The notes below the pieces were generated by a model. The model was not told where the DNA came from. It worked only from the letters and a program-made list of their open reading frames with translations, and searched no databases. A DNA stretch of 34,389 bases, from contig OMJT01000050.1 in assembly GCA_900299415.1 (NCBI GenBank), positions 1 through 34,389 on the forward strand, read 5' to 3'. Of this stretch, positions 8,521 to 17,168 are shown piece by piece; position 1 is the first letter of the stretch; each line of letters begins with the position of its first letter. The translations under genes and the position numbers were made by a program. The DNA is from Opitutales bacterium (GTDB lineage: Bacteria > Verrucomicrobiota > Verrucomicrobiia > Opitutales > Opitutaceae).

Positions 8521-10014
8521 CTAGGCCGCCGCCACGCCGGCCATGATCTCGAGCAGGCCGTGCTCGCTGAAGTTCTCCCGGGCGACCTCGCCGGCCAGCC
8601 GGCCCTCGCGCATCACGAGGATCCGGCGGCAAAGACCGATCAGCTCAGGCAGCTCCGACGAGATCACGAGCAGGGCCTTGCCCTCGCCGGCGAGTTCATC
8701 GAGCAACTGGTAGATCTCGGCCTTGGCCCCGACGTCGATGCCGCGGGTCGGCTCGTCGACGATCAGCACGTCGCAGTCGCGCGCGAGCCACTTGGCCAGC
8801 GCCAGCTTCTGCTGGTTGCCGCCGCTCAGGCTTGAGATCGGCGCCTCGAGTGAGGCAGTGCGCACGCGCAATCGCTGGGCGTAGCGGCCGACCAGTGCAC
8901 GCTCGGCGGTGCGGTCGACCCAGCCGGCGCGCGAGAGCAGCGGTAGCGCGGCCAGAGCGGCGTTCTCGCGGCAATTCAATGGGAGCACGAGGCCTTGGCG
9001 TTTACGGTCCTCCGGCACGAGCCCAAGCCCGGCGGCCATGGCCGTATCCATCGCCCCCAGCTTCAGCTCTCGGCCCCGTACGAACACCCGTCCCGTGGCG
9101 GCGGCGTCGAGACCGAGGATCGCCTGGGCCACCTCGCTTCGGCCGGCGCCGACAAGGCCGGCGAGGCCGACGACTTCACCGGCGCGCACCGCAAAGTTGA
9201 CGGCGGAAAAGTGGCCCGGGGACGAGAGGTTCTCGACGCGCAGGAATTCGTCGCCCAGCGCCCGCGTCAAGTGTGCCGGGGTCTGCACGAGCAGTTCGCG
9301 TCCGGTCATCTGCCGGACGACCCGCGCCTGGTTGGTGGCGGCGATCGCCTCTGTGGCGACGAAACGCCCGTCGCGGAGGACGGTCACGTGGTCGCAGAGC
9401 GCGAAGAGCTCCTCCATACGGTGCGAGACGTAGATGAGAGTGATGCCGCGGGCCTTGAGCTCGCCGATGAGGCGGAATAGTTCGCGCGTCTCGCCGCTGC
9501 TCAGGGAACTGGTGGGCTCGTCCATCACGATCACCTGCGCGCCGCTGCCGACGGCGGCGGCGATCTGGACGAGTTGTTCACGACCAGTGGAGAGGGTACC
9601 GATGACGGCATCCGGGTCGATGTCGGCGCCGATCTCGGCCAGCATCCGGCGGGCACGTTCGCGGAGCGCGGCGCGGTCGACCCAGCCGAGGGTGCGGCGC
9701 GGGAGGTCGCCGAGGCAGAGGTTCTCGGCGACGGTCAGGTTGGGGCAGAAGGCGAGTTCCTGGTGGACCATCGCGATGCCCAGCTGGCGGGCGGCGAGCG
9801 GCGAAGTCGGATGGATGACCCGGCCGTCGAGGCGGATCTCGCCCGAGTCGGCCCGGTGCACGCCGGCGAGGATGCGGCCGAGCGTGCTCTTGCCGGCGCC
9901 ATTCTCCCCGATGAGCGCATGACAGCTGCCGCGCTCGACGGCGAAACTCACGCCGTCGAGCGCCAGCGCCCCAGGGAAGCGCTTGGTGATGCGGTCAAAC
10001 TCCAGGAACGCCAT
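8521..10014 (-). CDS. Sugar ABC transporter ATPase, duplicated ABC domains (RbsA/MglA-type)
   Basis: A 497-residue protein from ATG 10014 with two ABC cassettes, as in RbsA/MglA/AraG. Cassette 1: Walker A GENGAGKSTLGRILAG (about 37-52), signature LSTGREQLVQ, Walker B VIVMDEPTSSLSS. Cassette 2: degenerate Walker A GLVGAGRSEVAQAILG, signature LSGGNQQKLALAKWL, Walker B VLIVDEPTRGIDVGAKAEIY. The altered second P-loop is normal for the family. The protein hydrolyses ATP at the cytosolic face to drive import through the permease encoded two genes upstream. It is the last gene of the minus-strand operon permease, binding protein, ATPase, starting 15 bases after the binding-protein stop. Confidence 0.95.
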   Translation of the reverse strand: MAFLEFDRITKRFPGALALDGVSFAVERGSCHALIGENGAGKSTLGRILAGVHRADSGEIRLDGRVIHPTSPLAARQLGIAMVHQELAFCPNLTVAENLCLGDLPRRTLGWVDRAALRERARRMLAEIGADIDPDAVIGTLSTGREQLVQIAAAVGSGAQVIVMDEPTSSLSSGETRELFRLIGELKARGITLIYVSHRMEELFALCDHVTVLRDGRFVATEAIAATNQARVVRQMTGRELLVQTPAHLTRALGDEFLRVENLSSPGHFSAVNFAVRAGEVVGLAGLVGAGRSEVAQAILGLDAAATGRVFVRGRELKLGAMDTAMAAGLGLVPEDRKRQGLVLPLNCRENAALAALPLLSRAGWVDRTAERALVGRYAQRLRVRTASLEAPISSLSGGNQQKLALAKWLARDCDVLIVDEPTRGIDVGAKAEIYQLLDELAGEGKALLVISSELPELIGLCRRILVMREGRLAGEVARENFSEHGLLEIMAGVAAA

Positions 10015-10029
10015 GGGGCGCGCCGCCGT

Positions 10030-10989
10030 CTATTTCGGCAGCCACTTGTCCCAATTCTTCGCGAAGGCGTCGACGTTGTCCTTGGTGATCGGGACCAGCG
10101 CGGCGACTTCCCGGACGGCCGGGGGATCCTTTTTGTTCACGATCTTGTCGACCAGCAGCTCCACGGTGCGGTGACCCCATTCGTAAACCTGCTGGGCCAG
10201 CAGGACGGGAACATGGCCGCTGCGGATGTAGGCAAGCTGGGCGGGAAGGGCGTCGACCGAGACGCACTTCACGGTGCCGGGACGCCACTTGAGGGCGTTC
10301 TCGGTGAAGAGCGGCCAGCCGCCGATCATGGCCCAGCCAGTGATGTCGGGGTTGGCTTGCATGACCTGCTCGACCTTCGCGGCGGCGTCCTGCGGCGTTT
10401 CCTTGTGGTAGTAGGTGTCGCGGATCGTGATGCCGGGATATTTCTTCGCCGCTTCCTTCGCGCCCTGGACGCGCCGCTGGAGGTTCGGGGCGTTCTGGTT
10501 GCCGGCGAGGATGGCGACGACGCCGCGGCCGTTCATGAGCTTGGCGAGCTCGTCCATGGTCTGGGCGCCGCAAAGGATGTCGTCGATCCCGTAGGTGACG
10601 AACCGCTTGCTCGCCGGGGCGTCGGAATCGAAGGTCGCGACCGGCACGCCGCGGTCGACGGCGCGGTTGATGGCATCGGTGAGCTTGTTGGCGTCGGATA
10701 CGCTCACCGAGATCCCGGCAGCGCCGGCCAGCACGAGCTGCTCGATCGCGTCGGCCTGCTTCTGGGCGTCTTCCTCGTTGGGGGTGCGCCAGTCGATCTT
10801 GATTGTCAGGCCGAGCTTGGTGCCGAGTTCTTTGGCAGCGTCCTCCGCGCCGACACGGGCGGCCTGGAAGACGGGGTTGCCCTGGGACTTGGCGACGAGA
10901 CCGAGGGTGATAGTGCGCGGGGCCTGGGCGGCAGACAGCGGCACGGCGAGCGCCGCGAGGGCGGCGAGGATTTGGAGCGGACGTTTCAT
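10030..10989 (-). CDS. Sugar ABC transporter periplasmic binding protein (RbsB-like), copy 2
   Basis: A 319-residue protein. ATG 10989 (MKRPLQILAALAALAVPLSA) gives a proper signal peptide; an upstream GTG would add 11 residues before it. The mature part has the Peripla_BP_4 pattern TITLGLVAKSQGNPVFQAA, LVLAGAAGISVSVSDANKL, GVPVATFDSDAPASKR and TGWAMIGGWPLF. FDSDAP is the canonical ligand-loop motif of ribose-type binding proteins. It sits between permease and ATPase genes and is the cognate receptor of this importer. The specific sugar cannot be read from sequence. It shares long identical blocks with the plus-strand copy 1 (for example WRTPNEEDAQKQA and QVMQANPDITGW), which marks a duplication. 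Confidence 0.93.
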   Translation of the reverse strand: MKRPLQILAALAALAVPLSAAQAPRTITLGLVAKSQGNPVFQAARVGAEDAAKELGTKLGLTIKIDWRTPNEEDAQKQADAIEQLVLAGAAGISVSVSDANKLTDAINRAVDRGVPVATFDSDAPASKRFVTYGIDDILCGAQTMDELAKLMNGRGVVAILAGNQNAPNLQRRVQGAKEAAKKYPGITIRDTYYHKETPQDAAAKVEQVMQANPDITGWAMIGGWPLFTENALKWRPGTVKCVSVDALPAQLAYIRSGHVPVLLAQQVYEWGHRTVELLVDKIVNKKDPPAVREVAALVPITKDNVDAFAKNWDKWLPK

Positions 10990-11064
10990 GGGGGTGGGGT
11001 GGAATGTGGCGCGGACCGCCACTATGGCGGAGAGCGGCTTAATCCGAAGTTAATTTGGATGGGG

Positions 11065-12222
11065 TCAGGCACTGGCCGCCGGCCGACGGCGGGCGAGCCA
11101 AGTATTGAGGTTGTCGAGCACCACGGCCGCGATGACGACCGCTCCAATGATGATCTGGCTGTAGTTTTGATCAATCCCAAGGATGACAATACCACTGTTG
11201 ATCATCTGGATCACGAGGGCGCCGAGCACGGCGCCGAGGGCCGAGCCCTTGCCGCCGGTCAGGCTGGCGCCGCCGACGACGGCGGCGGCGATGACATTGA
11301 GCTCGTAGCCCTGGCCGTCGCCGGAGGTCGCGGCTCCGTAGTAGCCGAGCGCGAGCAGGGCGGCGATGCCAGCGGTGGCGCCGGAGATCAGGTAGACCCC
11401 GAGCTTCACACGCTCGACCCGGATGCCGCTGAAGCGCGCGGCGAGCTCGTTGCCGCCGATGGCGTAGACGCGGCGGCCGGCGGCGAGGCGGGAGAGGAAG
11501 ATCCCGCCCAGCACGGTCACGAGCAGCATCACGGCGAGCGGCACGAGGCTGAGGCCGTTGCCCACCTCGTACCGGATGAGTTCGCGGAAGGCCGGGGGGA
11601 AGCCGCCGATGGACTGGCCCTTGGTCGTGACGAACGCGATGCCGCGCAGGATGGCCATGGCGCCGAGCGTGATGATGAACGGGTGGACACGCAGGGCCAC
11701 GATCAGGCCGCCGTTAATCAGGCCGCAGAGCGTGGCGACGCCGATGCACACAAAGGCGCCGATCGAGACACCGACCCAGGGGGCGAGGAGGATGTGGTCG
11801 GCGCCGGGGCCGAACTCACGCAACGTCAGCGCTCCCAGCACCGACGCGAGGGCGTAGATCGCGCCCACGCTCAGGTCGATGCCACCGGCAATGATCACGA
11901 CCGACATGCCGACGGCCATGATGGCGATGAAGCTGGTGTCCTTGGCGAGCTGGGCGAGATTCTGGGCGTTGAGGAACTTGTTCTTCTCCACGGTCGCCGG
12001 CACGCTCTCGCCGGAGGCGTTGGTGGTGTAGACCCGCTGCGGCAACCCGTCCGGCCCGGGGGCGAAGACCGGGGTCTGGACGCTGCCGCTGAAGACGGTG
12101 AGGAGCACCCCAAGCAGCAGGATGACCACGACGAGCCCGCTTTCCTGCATGCGCCCGAACGCCATCTTTGGGCTGGCCGGGGTAGGCGAGCCGGTTGCCC
12201 GGGGTTCGGCAGGCGGGGACAT
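11065..12222 (-). CDS. Sugar ABC transporter permease (RbsC-like, BPD_transp_2)
   Basis: A 385-residue polytopic membrane protein from ATG 12222. It shows the BPD_transp_2 pattern: FIAIMAVGMSVVIIAGGIDL (the AGGIDLSVG motif typical of RbsC), LRVHPFIITLGAMAILRGIA (TLG motif) and VVGGASLTGGKGSALGAVLG near the C-terminus. Between the first and second membrane segments (about 45-82) is a hydrophilic stretch (TPVFAPGPDGLPQRVYTTNA and onward) longer than in E. coli RbsC, probably periplasmic. It forms the channel of the importer with the downstream binding protein and ATPase. It is the first gene of the operon; its leader extends into the 275-base spacer shared with the FMN-binding gene. The 75-base gap to the next gene holds nothing I recognise. 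Confidence 0.94.
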   Translation of the reverse strand: MSPPAEPRATGSPTPASPKMAFGRMQESGLVVVILLLGVLLTVFSGSVQTPVFAPGPDGLPQRVYTTNASGESVPATVEKNKFLNAQNLAQLAKDTSFIAIMAVGMSVVIIAGGIDLSVGAIYALASVLGALTLREFGPGADHILLAPWVGVSIGAFVCIGVATLCGLINGGLIVALRVHPFIITLGAMAILRGIAFVTTKGQSIGGFPPAFRELIRYEVGNGLSLVPLAVMLLVTVLGGIFLSRLAAGRRVYAIGGNELAARFSGIRVERVKLGVYLISGATAGIAALLALGYYGAATSGDGQGYELNVIAAAVVGGASLTGGKGSALGAVLGALVIQMINSGIVILGIDQNYSQIIIGAVVIAAVVLDNLNTWLARRRPAASA

Positions 12223-12497: not shown

Positions 12498-13271
12498 ATG
12501 CGGACGAAGCGCAACCTCATGCTGATGGGGTCGGCCGCGGTCATCGCGATCTACACCACGGGGTTCTTCCACACCGCCGCTGCCGCCGCCAAACTGGCCG
12601 CCGACGAGCATGGCCGCACCGACCCGCGGGGCCGTGGTGGCGAGACCGAGCCCGGGCGGGCTAAAACGGTCCCCGCGCCGGTCGCCACCGCCACTCTGCC
12701 GCTCGCGACGCCGGCGACCCCGCCGCCCACCGCGACCCCGAAGCCGCTCCAGACGCCCGCTCCCGCCCCGTTGGCCACACCGGTGCCGTTGCCGGTGGCG
12801 ACCGCGCCGACCCCGGCGCCCACGCCGGCCGTGACCGCGGTCATCGCTCCGGCGGTTCCTGCCGCGACACCTGTTTCGGTTCCGAGTCCCGTCCCGACAA
12901 CGCCCGTTCAGGTGGCGGCGCTCCCCGCCGGCCCGGCCCCTGATGCGCCGACGACCTCCGCGACCTCCTCCGTCGTTCCCGCCGCGGTCTCGGCCGTGAA
13001 CAAGAAATACAAGGACGGCGCCTACTTCGGCTGGGGCCGCTGCCGTCACGGCGACCTCAAGGTCACCGTCGAGATGCTCGACGACAAGATCGTCTCCGCC
13101 GAGATCACGGAGTGCTACACGCGCTACTCCAAGAACGTGATTTCGCGTCTGCCGAAGCAGATCGTCGACCGCCAGAATCCCGACAAGCTCGACCGCATCT
13201 CCGGGGCCTCGGAAAGTTCCGACGCCTATTATTTCGCGGTGCTGGAGGCTTTGAAGGCGGCGAAATTGTGA
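12498..13271 (+). CDS. Exported FMN-binding domain protein with Pro/Ala/Thr-rich stalk
   Basis: A 257-residue protein. ATG 12498 is chosen; GTG 12447 in frame would add 17 residues. Residues about 6-32 are a hydrophobic anchor or signal (NLMLMGSAAVIAIYTTGFF then AAAAAK). Residues about 55-165 are a Pro/Ala/Thr/Val stalk resembling TonB or lipoprotein linkers. Residues 169-257 are an FMN_bind domain (KYKDGAYFGWGRCRHGDLKV, VEMLDDKIVSAEITEC) ending with DRISGAS at 232-238, the site where ApbE attaches FMN through a phosphoester. The acceptor position is Ser238 where Thr is usual. The protein would carry electrons outside the cytoplasmic membrane. Its TGA overlaps the GTG of apbE (GTGA), and an RnfD-like gene follows, so partners are clear. 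Confidence 0.85.
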   Translation: MRTKRNLMLMGSAAVIAIYTTGFFHTAAAAAKLAADEHGRTDPRGRGGETEPGRAKTVPAPVATATLPLATPATPPPTATPKPLQTPAPAPLATPVPLPVATAPTPAPTPAVTAVIAPAVPAATPVSVPSPVPTTPVQVAALPAGPAPDAPTTSATSSVVPAAVSAVNKKYKDGAYFGWGRCRHGDLKVTVEMLDDKIVSAEITECYTRYSKNVISRLPKQIVDRQNPDKLDRISGASESSDAYYFAVLEALKAAKL

Positions 13272-14194
13272 GCGCGGGCGGAGCCCAATCGGCGGCCCTG
13301 ATGGGCACGCTGGTCACGATCGAGGCCGTGGGCCCGGTCCCGGGGGGTGGGGAGGGCGAGCGTGACGCGGTCGTCCGGCGGGCGCTGGACTGGTTCCGGC
13401 GGGTGGAGGCGACCTGCAACCGTTTCGATCCCGAAAGCGAACTGCGTCGGCTTTCCGCCCGGGTCGGCGAAGCCGTGCCCGCCAGCCCGCTGCTGTTCGA
13501 GGCCGTGCGCTTTGCGCTGGCCCTGGCCGAGGAAACCGACGGGGCGTTCGACCCGACGGTGGGCGCGGCGCTGGAGGCGCGGGGCTTCAACCGCCATTAC
13601 CGCACGCAGCTGCCAGCGGGTCCTTTCCCCGGGCCCGCTGCCGCCAAAACCGCGACGTTCCGCGATGTGCGCCTCGATGAGCGCCGCAGGACGATCACCC
13701 TGCTGCAGCCGCTGGTCCTCGACCTCGGGGCGGTGGCCAAGGGCCTCGCGATCGATCTTGCGGCGCGGGAATTGCAACCGCTCCGGAACTTCCTGGTCGA
13801 TGCCGGTGGCGACCTGTATCTCGGCGGGCGCAATGCCCAGGGCCGGCCGTGGTCCATCGGCATCCACCACCCGCGGCAGCCCGGCGAGGTCCTCGAGACG
13901 ATCGAGGCCGAGGACACCGCGGTGTGCACCTCGGGCGACTATGAGCGCCGCGCGCCGCAGCCCGGGGCCGGCCACCACATCATCGACCTGCGCACCGGCG
14001 CTGCGGCCGGGGGCGCGGCGAGCGTGACCGTGCTCGCGCCTTCCGCGATGGTGGCCGACGGACTGGCCACCGCGGCCTTCGTGCTCGGGCCGCAGGCGGG
14101 AATCGAGTTGCTCGAACGTCACGGGGCGGATGGGATCATCGTGACCCCGGCTCTGGAGCGCTTCGCCACGAGCAGTTTCCCCTCCCATGAGTAA
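13268..14194 (+). CDS. apbE: FAD:protein FMN transferase (ApbE)
   Basis: A 308-residue protein. GTG 13268 overlaps the preceding stop and is the best coupled start; ATG 13301 (MGTLVTIEA) is the next choice. ApbE motifs are present: LMGTLVTIEA at the N-terminus, FDPTVG (about 94), LDLGAVAKGLAIDLAA (151-166), LVDAGGDLYLGG (186-197) and, near the end, ATAAFVLGPQAGIELLE. The enzyme splits FAD and transfers FMN to Ser or Thr of a target protein with Mg2+. Unlike many ApbE proteins it has no visible signal peptide or lipobox with this start, so it may act in the cytosol before export of the target. The gene lies between its likely substrate and a membrane partner and overlaps the latter by 8 bases. 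Confidence 0.93.
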   Translation: MSAGGAQSAALMGTLVTIEAVGPVPGGGEGERDAVVRRALDWFRRVEATCNRFDPESELRRLSARVGEAVPASPLLFEAVRFALALAEETDGAFDPTVGAALEARGFNRHYRTQLPAGPFPGPAAAKTATFRDVRLDERRRTITLLQPLVLDLGAVAKGLAIDLAARELQPLRNFLVDAGGDLYLGGRNAQGRPWSIGIHHPRQPGEVLETIEAEDTAVCTSGDYERRAPQPGAGHHIIDLRTGAAAGGAASVTVLAPSAMVADGLATAAFVLGPQAGIELLERHGADGIIVTPALERFATSSFPSHE

Positions 14195-15056
14195 CCATAC
14201 TCCCGTCCCACCCCAGTCGGCCGGCGCAGCCCTCCGGCAATTCTTCCGCAAACCCAAGGGGCTGCTGATCGTGGTGTTCGTCGCCCTCCTCGGGCTCGCG
14301 GCGGTCCTCGGTGATCGCTCCATGATGGGGCCGGGGCTCTTCGCCGCCATGCTGGCGGCGGCCGTGGTCGATGCACCGATCCTGCGTTGGCGCGATGGCC
14401 ACTGGAGTTTCCCGGATGGGGCGCTGCTCACCGGCATGATTGTGGGCATGATCATCAGCCCGATCGAGCCCTGGCACGTCTCGGCCGTCACGGCTGTGAT
14501 CGGTGTGGTCAGTAAGTACCTCCTGCGCACGCGAACGGCCAACATCTTCAACCCCGCGGCGCTCGCCTTGATCGTCTCCTACCATGTCTTTGGCTCGGCG
14601 CAGAACTGGTGGGGCGCCATGCCCGAGGTTACCCCGTGGGCGCTCGTGGCGCTCATCGTGGGCGGCGTGTTCATCACCGACCGCGTGAACAAGATGCCGC
14701 TGCTGCTCGCCTTCCTCGGCGGCTACTTCCTGCTGTTCACGATTTCCTCCTGGATCGGCGACCCAGCGCACTACGTCGAGGTCTACCGCCAGCCCGACCT
14801 GCATGCCGCGCTGTATTTCGGGTTCTTCATGGTGACGGACCCGCCGACCTCGCCGCCCCGGGCGAAGGAACAGCTGATCTTCGGCGCTATCACCGCCGTA
14901 GTCTGCTACGCCTTCTTCCAGCTCATCGGCCTCGTCTACTTCCTCTCGGCCGGCCTGATGATTGCCAACGCCTGGGAAGCCTGGCGCCGCGTGCGCGCCC
15001 ATTCCGAGCGCGAGCGGCTGAAGGTGCACGATACCCGGCATCCGCATCCGGTGTGA
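14187..15056 (+). CDS. RnfD/NqrB-like membrane protein (NQR2_RnfD_RnfE family)
   Basis: A 289-residue membrane protein from ATG 14187. Family marks are NIFNPAALALIVSY (the H/NIFNPAA motif), a GGVFITDRVN helix and FFMVTDPPTSPPRAKEQLIFG (the MxTDPxxSP motif of RnfD/NqrB). About eight hydrophobic segments are visible. RnfD and NqrB normally carry FMN on a Thr in an SGAT motif; I see none here, so this may be a shortened form without covalent flavin. It probably conducts electrons through the membrane to the FMN-binding protein encoded two genes upstream. None of the other Rnf/Nqr subunits are present nearby, which separates this cassette from the classical complexes. The C-terminal tail is basic and His-rich. 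Confidence 0.88.
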   Translation: MSNHTPVPPQSAGAALRQFFRKPKGLLIVVFVALLGLAAVLGDRSMMGPGLFAAMLAAAVVDAPILRWRDGHWSFPDGALLTGMIVGMIISPIEPWHVSAVTAVIGVVSKYLLRTRTANIFNPAALALIVSYHVFGSAQNWWGAMPEVTPWALVALIVGGVFITDRVNKMPLLLAFLGGYFLLFTISSWIGDPAHYVEVYRQPDLHAALYFGFFMVTDPPTSPPRAKEQLIFGAITAVVCYAFFQLIGLVYFLSAGLMIANAWEAWRRVRAHSERERLKVHDTRHPHPV

Positions 15057-15116: not shown

Positions 15117-15530
15117 CTACGATTTTTGCGATTTGCCGGCCCGGATGACCCAGAGCTCGGGCCGGGCTGACATGGTGACCAACTGGCCGAGGAGGCGCTC
15201 GTACCTTTGGTCGAGAGCGGAGGCGCGATCGGCCATGAGATATTGAAACCGTACGGACAACTCCAAGTGGGTCTGCGTTTCGGCCGCTTCGCCCTCGGCA
15301 TCGTTGAGTTTGGCCACGAAGGCCGGCCCATACCGACGTTTTCGCCAGGCTTCGGCAATGTTGGCCGCCACGGACCGTGCGGAGCGTCGTACCTGATCGG
15401 TCAGCGAGTATCTTTCGTTGGAGGGGAAATGGTTGCTCGCGACCTGCACTTCCACCGCGAGATCCATGGCCTGCTGCCAAACCCGGAGGTCCCGATGGCT
15501 GCGGAGCCGCTCGGAGGGACCACGAGCCAT
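15117..15530 (-). CDS. Four-helix-bundle protein (S23/IVP family)
   Basis: About 137 residues from ATG 15530, preceded by a GGGGAAAG purine run at suitable distance; ATG 15572 and GTG 15590 are alternative starts. The sequence HRDLRVWQQAMDLAVEV, then SLTDQVRRSARSVAANIAEA and FVAKLNDAEGEAAETQTHLE, is the TIGR02436/PF05635 four-helix bundle. This family is found in 23S rRNA intervening sequences and as free-standing genes; its function is unknown. Family length is usually 115-130 residues, so the short start fits. It is convergent with the RnfD-like gene and divergent from the ORF6N gene, in a stretch with lower GC than its surroundings. Confidence 0.86.
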   Translation of the reverse strand: MARGPSERLRSHRDLRVWQQAMDLAVEVQVASNHFPSNERYSLTDQVRRSARSVAANIAEAWRKRRYGPAFVAKLNDAEGEAAETQTHLELSVRFQYLMADRASALDQRYERLLGQLVTMSARPELWVIRAGKSQKS

Positions 15531-15675
15531 CGAACTTTCCCCGGCTTCGTCCGCTCGAACTCTGTTGGGCATAGAATGATTCACACCCACCAGAACGTAA
15601 GAACCGCCCCCAATCTTTCACCCAAAGTAAAAAATCTTTGCCGCCCTCACCCCCTCACCGAGTCCCCCGTTCCCG

Positions 15676-16170
15676 TTGCCGGCCTTTTTCATTCGCGGGC
15701 AGCGCGTCATCGTCGATGCCGACCTGGCCCATTTCTACGGGGTGGTTACCGGCGAACTCAATCGAGCCGTCCGACGAAACCGTGATCGGTTCCCACCAGA
15801 CTTTTCCTTTGTGCTTAGCAAAGAAGAGGTTAAAGACTTGAAATGCCAATCTGGCATTTCAAGTTTGAGCCATGGCGGACGACGAGGAATGCCCACAGTC
15901 TTCACGGAGCAGGGTGTCGCCATGGTCGCGACGGTGCTGCACAGCCCGCACGCCGCCAAGGTCTCGGTGGCCCTGATCCGCGCCTTCGTTCAGCTGCGCG
16001 AGCTGCTGTCCACCCACCGCGAGCTGGCCGCAAAGCTCGCCGAGCTGGAAAAGAAACTCGAGGGCCACGACGCGGCGATCGGCAATCTCTTCGAGGCGAT
16101 GCGCCAGCTGCTCGCGTTGCCCGAACCGGATCACGGGCGGAAGATCGGATTCAACCGGGAATCAAGCTAG
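15676..16170 (+). CDS. ORF6N-domain DNA-binding protein
   Basis: A 164-residue protein. The only in-frame start after the stop at 15628-15630 is TTG 15676. Residues 1-90 are an ORF6N domain: FFIRGQRVIVDADLAHFYGV, LNRAVRRNRDRFPPDFSFVL, GGRRGMPTVFTEQGVAMVAT. The C-terminal half is a helical coiled-coil (HRELAAKLAELEKKLEGHDA) ending in GRKIGFN, as in bacterial free-standing ORF6N proteins. The N-terminus lacks a few residues usually present before IRGQ, so it may be slightly truncated. ORF6N/KilA-N domains come from phage antirepressors, but no other phage gene is near. A perfect 13-bp inverted repeat lies inside the gene at 15836-15864. It is convergent with the hydroxylase gene, 6 bases apart. 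Confidence 0.83.
   Translation: MPAFFIRGQRVIVDADLAHFYGVVTGELNRAVRRNRDRFPPDFSFVLSKEEVKDLKCQSGISSLSHGGRRGMPTVFTEQGVAMVATVLHSPHAAKVSVALIRAFVQLRELLSTHRELAAKLAELEKKLEGHDAAIGNLFEAMRQLLALPEPDHGRKIGFNRESS
15836..15864. repeat. Perfect 13-bp inverted repeat inside the ORF6N gene
   Basis: ACTTGAAATGCCA (15836-15848) and TGGCATTTCAAGT (15852-15864) are exact reverse complements around ATC. It codes KDLKCQSGISS between the two conserved ORF6N blocks, where the family varies. It is AT-rich compared with the gene. It could form an mRNA or cruciform hairpin or be a binding site. Confidence 0.9.
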
Positions 16171-17022: not shown

Positions 17023-17082
17023 GGGGCCCCGGACGAAACCTGTCCCACCCTGGCGCCGTGGGCAATACCGCGGAGGGAGAGG

Positions 17083-17151
17083 GAGTGGGAGACAAGGCGA
17101 AGGGGAGATGGGGGAATGGATCAGGTCTCCCCTTCACCCCGTCTCCCACTC
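17083..17151. repeat. Long imperfect inverted repeat, purine/pyrimidine arms
   Basis: The arm 17083-17108 (starts GAGTGGGAGAC, ends GAAGGGGAGA) is the reverse complement of 17126-17151 at 23 of 26 positions, with a 17-base loop. It fills much of the 146-base gap between the SRPBCC and hydroxylase genes, both minus strand. The arms are almost pure purine and pyrimidine. It looks like a REP- or MITE-like intergenic element or a strong RNA hairpin upstream of the hydroxylase. Confidence 0.7.
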
Positions 17152-17168
17152 ACCCGCTCTCGCATCGC

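Follow-up and report, generated by a model that had tools for sequence, protein, structure and literature searches.

The cassette lies at positions 12498-15056 of a 34,389-nucleotide stretch of DNA from an Opitutales bacterium; this whole stretch is referred to as the window. The cassette consists of three plus-strand genes in the order FMN_bind, ApbE and NqrB/RnfD-like. The first gene (12498..13271), which is also the conserved first gene of related cassettes, encodes an FMN_bind protein of 257 residues (PF04205). It is followed by the gene of the 308-residue FAD:protein FMN transferase ApbE (13268..14194; PF02424) and by that of a stand-alone NqrB/RnfD-like membrane protein of 289 residues (14187..15056; PF03116). 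The GTG start codon of apbE runs into the stop codon of the preceding gene in a four-base overlap, and apbE overlaps the membrane protein gene by eight bases. All three proteins score above the curated Pfam cut-offs, which confirms the three overlapping genes described in the initial annotation. The locus is not a six-subunit Rnf or Nqr operon, since it comprises three genes only. The host genome (a MAG, 76% complete) contains a single PF04205 locus and a single PF03116 locus, both belonging to this cassette, in a genome-wide subunit search that covered these two families. Two more ApbE genes are present elsewhere in the genome.

Upstream of the cassette, the window contains divergent minus-strand genes of a sugar ABC transporter (8521-12222; ATPase, binding protein and permease). 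Downstream, a gene for a 23S_rRNA_IVP (PF05635) four-helix-bundle protein and an ORF6N-domain gene (15117-16170) separate the cassette from a fatty acid hydroxylase gene and sit in a dip of G+C content (0.604). In the sister locus L030, the hydroxylase gene directly follows the cassette with no intervening PF05635/ORF6N pair, and therefore the pair in the window looks like a recent insertion. An inverted repeat of 36 nt with a 17-nt loop and 81% complementarity is located upstream of the hydroxylase gene (17073-17161) and could be a repeated palindromic element.

The FMN_bind protein is built from an N-terminal membrane anchor, a Pro/Ala/Thr-rich tether and a C-terminal FMN domain. The initial annotation described an exported protein on a Pro/Ala/Thr stalk; the stalk is present, but the protein is held by its N-terminal helix and thus anchored rather than released. 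The hydrophobic anchor helix LMLMGSAAVIAIYTTGFFH (12516..12572), seen in the AlphaFold model, is conserved across the cassette family as ALGSAAVLAVYAAGYxRT. It is predicted from charge to be oriented N-in/C-out, and the charges flanking the anchor favour this orientation in 27 of the 31 cassette FMN proteins. The tether (residues 39-168; 12612..13001) is predicted to be disordered, with a model pLDDT of about 50-60. About 75% of its 130 residues are Pro, Ala, Thr or Val (33, 28, 21 and 16, respectively), and it contains no Phe, Trp or Tyr.

The length of the tether varies from 25 to 168 residues across the family. When the phyla are sorted by presumed envelope type, tethers measure 25-168 residues with a median of 135 in the diderm phyla, and 42-99 residues with a median of 66 in Chloroflexota and Bacillota. 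The shortest tether, of 25 residues, belongs to one member of the Opitutaceae. The p value of 1e-4 computed for the difference is overstated, because the diderm members are a single clade and the comparison amounts to one phylogenetic contrast. The pattern fits a tether that reaches across the cell envelope.

The FMN domain (residues 170-256; 13005..13265) is modelled with a pLDDT of about 95 and is conserved across the family. Its PF04205 score of 22.8 bits is barely above the cut-off of 22, and its fold matches the solved flavinylated domains 8p2a and 8p2b in Foldseek. The predicted flavinylation site, identified by alignment, is Ser238 (13209..13211) of an SGAS motif. Family match, fold and the [ST]GA[ST] acceptor together place the protein among FMN_bind proteins. 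Most family members carry SGAT, SGAS occurs in the window and its nearest relative, and three members (L040, L055 and L061) have SRAT. The serine acceptor, which had been put forward as a special feature, falls within the published flavinylation motif [S/T]GA[S/T] (PMC8238504) and is thus ordinary. Two conserved cysteines of the domain were considered as metal or disulphide ligands and rejected: the first is Cys in only part of the family, with Ser or another residue in the rest, and the second is absent from some Chloroflexota.

The ApbE protein matches PF02424 across nearly the whole profile (213.6 bits) and contains core motifs of the family (DLGAVAKG, DAGGD, TSGDY and HIIDLRTG). The best start codon is the GTG at 13268, and the ApbE core begins about 11 residues downstream of it, as in relatives. 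Neither a signal peptide nor a lipobox was recognised in the ApbE of the window, and none of the cassette ApbEs examined has a leader before the core. The ApbEs of NAD-fused relatives likewise lack signal peptides (loci L029-L063 and L135-L146, which cover both systems). Classical ApbE works in the periplasm, and cytosolic ApbEs acting on cytosolic targets exist (PMC12052999). A signal-less ApbE paired with an FMN domain predicted to be outside is an oddity. It may be explained either by attachment of the FMN ahead of export or by an FMN domain that in fact lies in the cytosol.

The membrane protein matches PF03116 with 55.6 bits against a cut-off of 27.7, and its AlphaFold model is confident (pLDDT 90.4). 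The best 15 matches in the PDB are all RnfD or NqrB, with Z scores of 19-23 (RnfD 22.9, NqrB about 20). The next-best folds are urea and ammonia channels with Z scores of about 11-12, the highest being 12.1. The [ST]GA[ST] motif, and with it the covalent FMN acceptor threonine, is not present in the protein. In the alignment, the SGAT-bearing region of RnfD and NqrB is replaced by a much shorter loop, in which WWG(A) is invariant (residues 141-144; 14607..14618). The initial annotation regarded this loss as new, but it had been reported for NAD-fused NQR/RNF-like proteins (PMC10979944).

In NqrB of V. cholerae, the reported ligands of the non-covalently bound riboflavin are T162, N200, N203, A205, F342 and D346 (PMC10643135). 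Their equivalents in the cassette protein are Thr82 (14430..14432), Asn119, Asn122 and Ala124 of the motif NIFNPA (residues 119-124; 14541..14558), and Phe214 and Asp218 of FMVTD (14826..14840), with the Vibrio numbering carried over through verrucomicrobial NqrB and RnfD sequences of matching spacing rather than through an alignment of the Vibrio chain itself. Among 34 membrane proteins, N122, A124 and D218 are invariant, T82 is found in 29 (serine in four others) and N119 in 28. Alignment and model indicate that the membrane protein has kept the non-covalent flavin pocket and lost the covalent FMN loop. The quinone contact G141 of NqrB corresponds to A59, a position at which family members carry A, M, V, G, I or C. 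This variability leaves an NqrB-like quinone site without support, and such a site was dropped as the point of electron entry. The protein stops after its last helix, without a C-terminal NAD domain.

Homologues of the membrane protein were found in 9 of 200 genomes from the family to which the window belongs. In those carriers with enough flanking sequence, the FMN gene adjoins the membrane protein gene, nearly always with apbE between them. When named genomes were scanned with the alignment of the family, 35 loci emerged in five phyla: Verrucomicrobiota (Opitutae), Gemmatimonadota, Acidobacteriota, Chloroflexota and Bacillota. The carriers include the cultured isolates Priestia koreensis and Fictibacillus enclensis. 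About a dozen genomes carry this type in a sample of 251 from the phylum of the Chloroflexota locus L047. The order FMN-ApbE-RnfD is present at 31 of 36 loci with the window counted; of the five exceptions, two are truncated at the end of a contig, and in three no apbE separates the FMN gene from the membrane protein gene. Such recurrence across five phyla, which a search for the same order in other genomes revealed, is not due to chance. Twelve other carrier genomes were searched with PF03116 and twelve with PF04205, and only cassette loci were found. The cassette is the sole PF03116 locus in 11 of the former, and the twelfth has a second cassette. One Chloroflexota genome carries two cassette copies, L119 and G663:C111. 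Homologues do not always reside in complete Rnf or Nqr operons, an outcome in favour of the initial annotation. Its view of the cassette as a stand-alone minimal module rather than a piece of Rnf or Nqr is borne out by the conserved order, a separate clade in the tree described below, and the sole PF03116 and PF04205 loci.

The genes adjoining the cassette vary by lineage and include mandelate racemase-like and glucose dehydrogenase-like genes, PFOR, a MoxR operon with a nitroreductase, a two-component pair, cytochrome c and a thioredoxin-like protein. Since the gene order is kept in five phyla despite changing neighbours, the three genes form a conserved unit. None of the neighbours recurs beyond close relatives as a candidate functional partner. 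In both Bacillales isolates, the 3' end of the cassette faces a conserved pair of convergently oriented genes (L059 6718-8662 and L060 6846-8800); the pair is a histidine kinase and a response regulator by Pfam in L059, and homologous in L060. Viral contigs gave no match to the cassette pattern. A search of the class with the whole FMN protein returned, besides the protein itself, low-complexity stalks only. A profile of the FMN domain alone, run in a sample of the phylum that differs from the 200-genome family sample, found FMN_bind in other contexts, without a cassette-type membrane protein except in the genome of the window itself. In one verrucomicrobial genome, an FMN_bind domain and a flavin reductase-like domain (PF01613) are fused (L068 1417-2436). 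The Metabacillus plasmid pB218 encodes a member of another NqrB/RnfD-like subfamily with the motif HIFNPSN (L077 5234-6621), whose gene overlaps an AhpC/TSA-type redoxin gene rather than FMN_bind. Relatives of 570 residues occur in the Chloroflexota sample (L139 and L147), and proteins of this type are possibly conduits that feed a thioredoxin-like protein.

Based on these observations, the cassette probably encodes a minimal flavinylated electron-transfer system that is all-flavin and transmembrane. ApbE would attach FMN to Ser238 of the FMN protein, and the membrane protein would bind a non-covalent flavin that takes electrons from a separate, unlinked donor in the cytosol or membrane. The tethered FMN domain may dock on the outer face of the membrane protein, standing in for the missing covalent FMN, and may then swing away to reduce an acceptor located in the periplasm or cell wall. 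The initial annotation proposed that electrons are carried outwards and that the stalk spans the periplasm. We also infer an outward direction, with which the longer tethers of diderm phyla are consistent without proving it. A single flavin path makes ion pumping unlikely. The order FMN-ApbE-RnfD, which is also found in the known NAD-fused system, argues for this reading. The cassette contains no recognisable NAD domain, haem or iron-sulphur centre, and no recognisable entry point for electrons of NAD(P)H, ferredoxin or quinol. Counting against the proposed system are the cassette ApbEs without signal peptides, the lack of a nearby NAD module, the variable counterpart of the NqrB quinone contact, the SRAT motif of three members and the three loci without an intervening apbE. 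We speculate, more tentatively, that the cassette represents a widespread class of transmembrane conduit, not yet described, that consists of just two proteins and uses flavins alone. A non-covalent flavin in the membrane protein and a covalent FMN, carried by a tether with a length suited to the cell envelope, may together pass on electrons from an unlinked donor in the cytosol or membrane. A cytosolic ApbE might flavinylate the FMN protein before its export.

Electrons could also run in the opposite direction: the tethered FMN would gather them from a donor on the outside, and the membrane protein would conduct them inwards, much like the latter half of Nqr (NqrC FMN to NqrB to quinone) or Rnf (RnfG FMN to RnfD to RnfC). 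The step from NqrC to NqrB in Nqr goes inwards (PMC10643135), the cassette encodes no outward donor, and dehydrogenase-like or cytochrome c genes adjoin some cassettes. However, these neighbours are inconsistent, the NqrB quinone contact is not conserved, and the NAD-fused relatives were proposed to run outwards (PMC8238504), and we therefore regard inward flow as rather unlikely. Slightly less likely still is a cytosolic FMN domain, flavinylated there by the signal-less ApbE and serving as the cytosolic donor to the membrane protein. It would agree with the absence of signal peptides from all cassette ApbEs examined and with the existence of cytosolic pairs of ApbE and target, whereas the charge distribution around the anchor, the correlation of tether length with envelope type, and the outside position of the FMN_bind partners of NqrB and RnfD in solved complexes speak against it.

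It is improbable that the membrane protein is a transporter of FAD, FMN or riboflavin for flavinylation instead of an electron carrier. The flavin pocket is retained and the fold also resembles the urea and ammonia channels, but the likeness to channels is probably a common property of the NqrB fold, Nqr and Rnf use this fold to carry electrons, and a signal-less ApbE has no need of exported FAD. The idea of a remnant left by a complete Rnf or Nqr operon, to which the homology to NqrB and RnfD might point, is rejected as highly improbable, since the twelve other carrier genomes searched have PF03116 in cassettes only and the membrane proteins constitute a monophyletic group of their own, which spans five phyla and preserves both motifs and gene order.

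If the all-flavin electron-transfer system works as proposed, it would be among the simplest known routes for electrons across a membrane, with two proteins and flavins only, and no haem, iron-sulphur or NAD domain. The cassette is compact enough for reconstitution and is present in cultured Bacillales. Its parts are ordinary, and the interest lies in what is missing. It raises the questions of which donor reduces an RnfD-like protein without an NAD module, and how an ApbE without an export signal flavinylates an FMN domain on the outside.

The closest described system is the NQR/RNF-like flavinylation system, whose defining feature is the fusion of a PF03116 membrane domain with an NAD-binding domain of PF00175 (Meheust 2021, PMC8238504). 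A modelled example has lost the covalent site, and its FMN domain was proposed to sample the non-covalent flavin site (Huang 2024, PMC10979944). The cassette shares with this system a PF03116 membrane domain clustered with ApbE and FMN_bind, two redox proteins plus ApbE in the order FMN-ApbE-RnfD, the NqrB/RnfD fold without a covalent FMN site, an FMN protein that spans the membrane once and has a linker, and an ApbE that lacks a signal peptide. It differs in that neither the membrane protein nor its flanks contain the C-terminal PF00175 domain. The NAD-module profile gave no match in the window or in the regions flanking the 36 loci; as a positive control, it detected the fused proteins. NAD-fused proteins of Chloroflexota appeared as a clearly weaker group in the same search that found the cassettes, and PF00175 was confirmed in two that were scanned. 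The tree unites the cassette membrane proteins in a single clade (100/100) that is distinct from the NAD-fused clade (100/99), from RnfD and from NqrB; long branches make the deepest connections between these groups unreliable, and the tree therefore does not settle whether the ancestor had the NAD module. The initial annotation did not name the real difference, the missing cytosolic NAD-binding module. No description of the NAD-less type was found in the main texts of the open-access literature, and an earlier mention elsewhere is possible. The cassette is a real and conserved variant of a described kind and, as far as could be checked, an undescribed one.

The cassette resembles Rnf (RnfD and RnfG) in its RnfD fold, FMN_bind partner and dependence on ApbE, and differs by its two-protein core, the deleted covalent FMN loop and the lack of a second PF03116 protein in the genome. 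It shares with Na+-NQR (NqrB and NqrC) the NqrB fold and the riboflavin ligand residues, but is much smaller and has neither SGAT nor a conserved counterpart of the quinone-contact Gly141. Listeria-type EET, MsrQ-like, PepSY-like and NapH-like systems also combine a flavinylated outside carrier with a transmembrane conduit. Their conduits, unlike that of the cassette, belong to other membrane-protein families, and those of the MsrQ, PepSY and NapH types are haem or iron-sulphur proteins.
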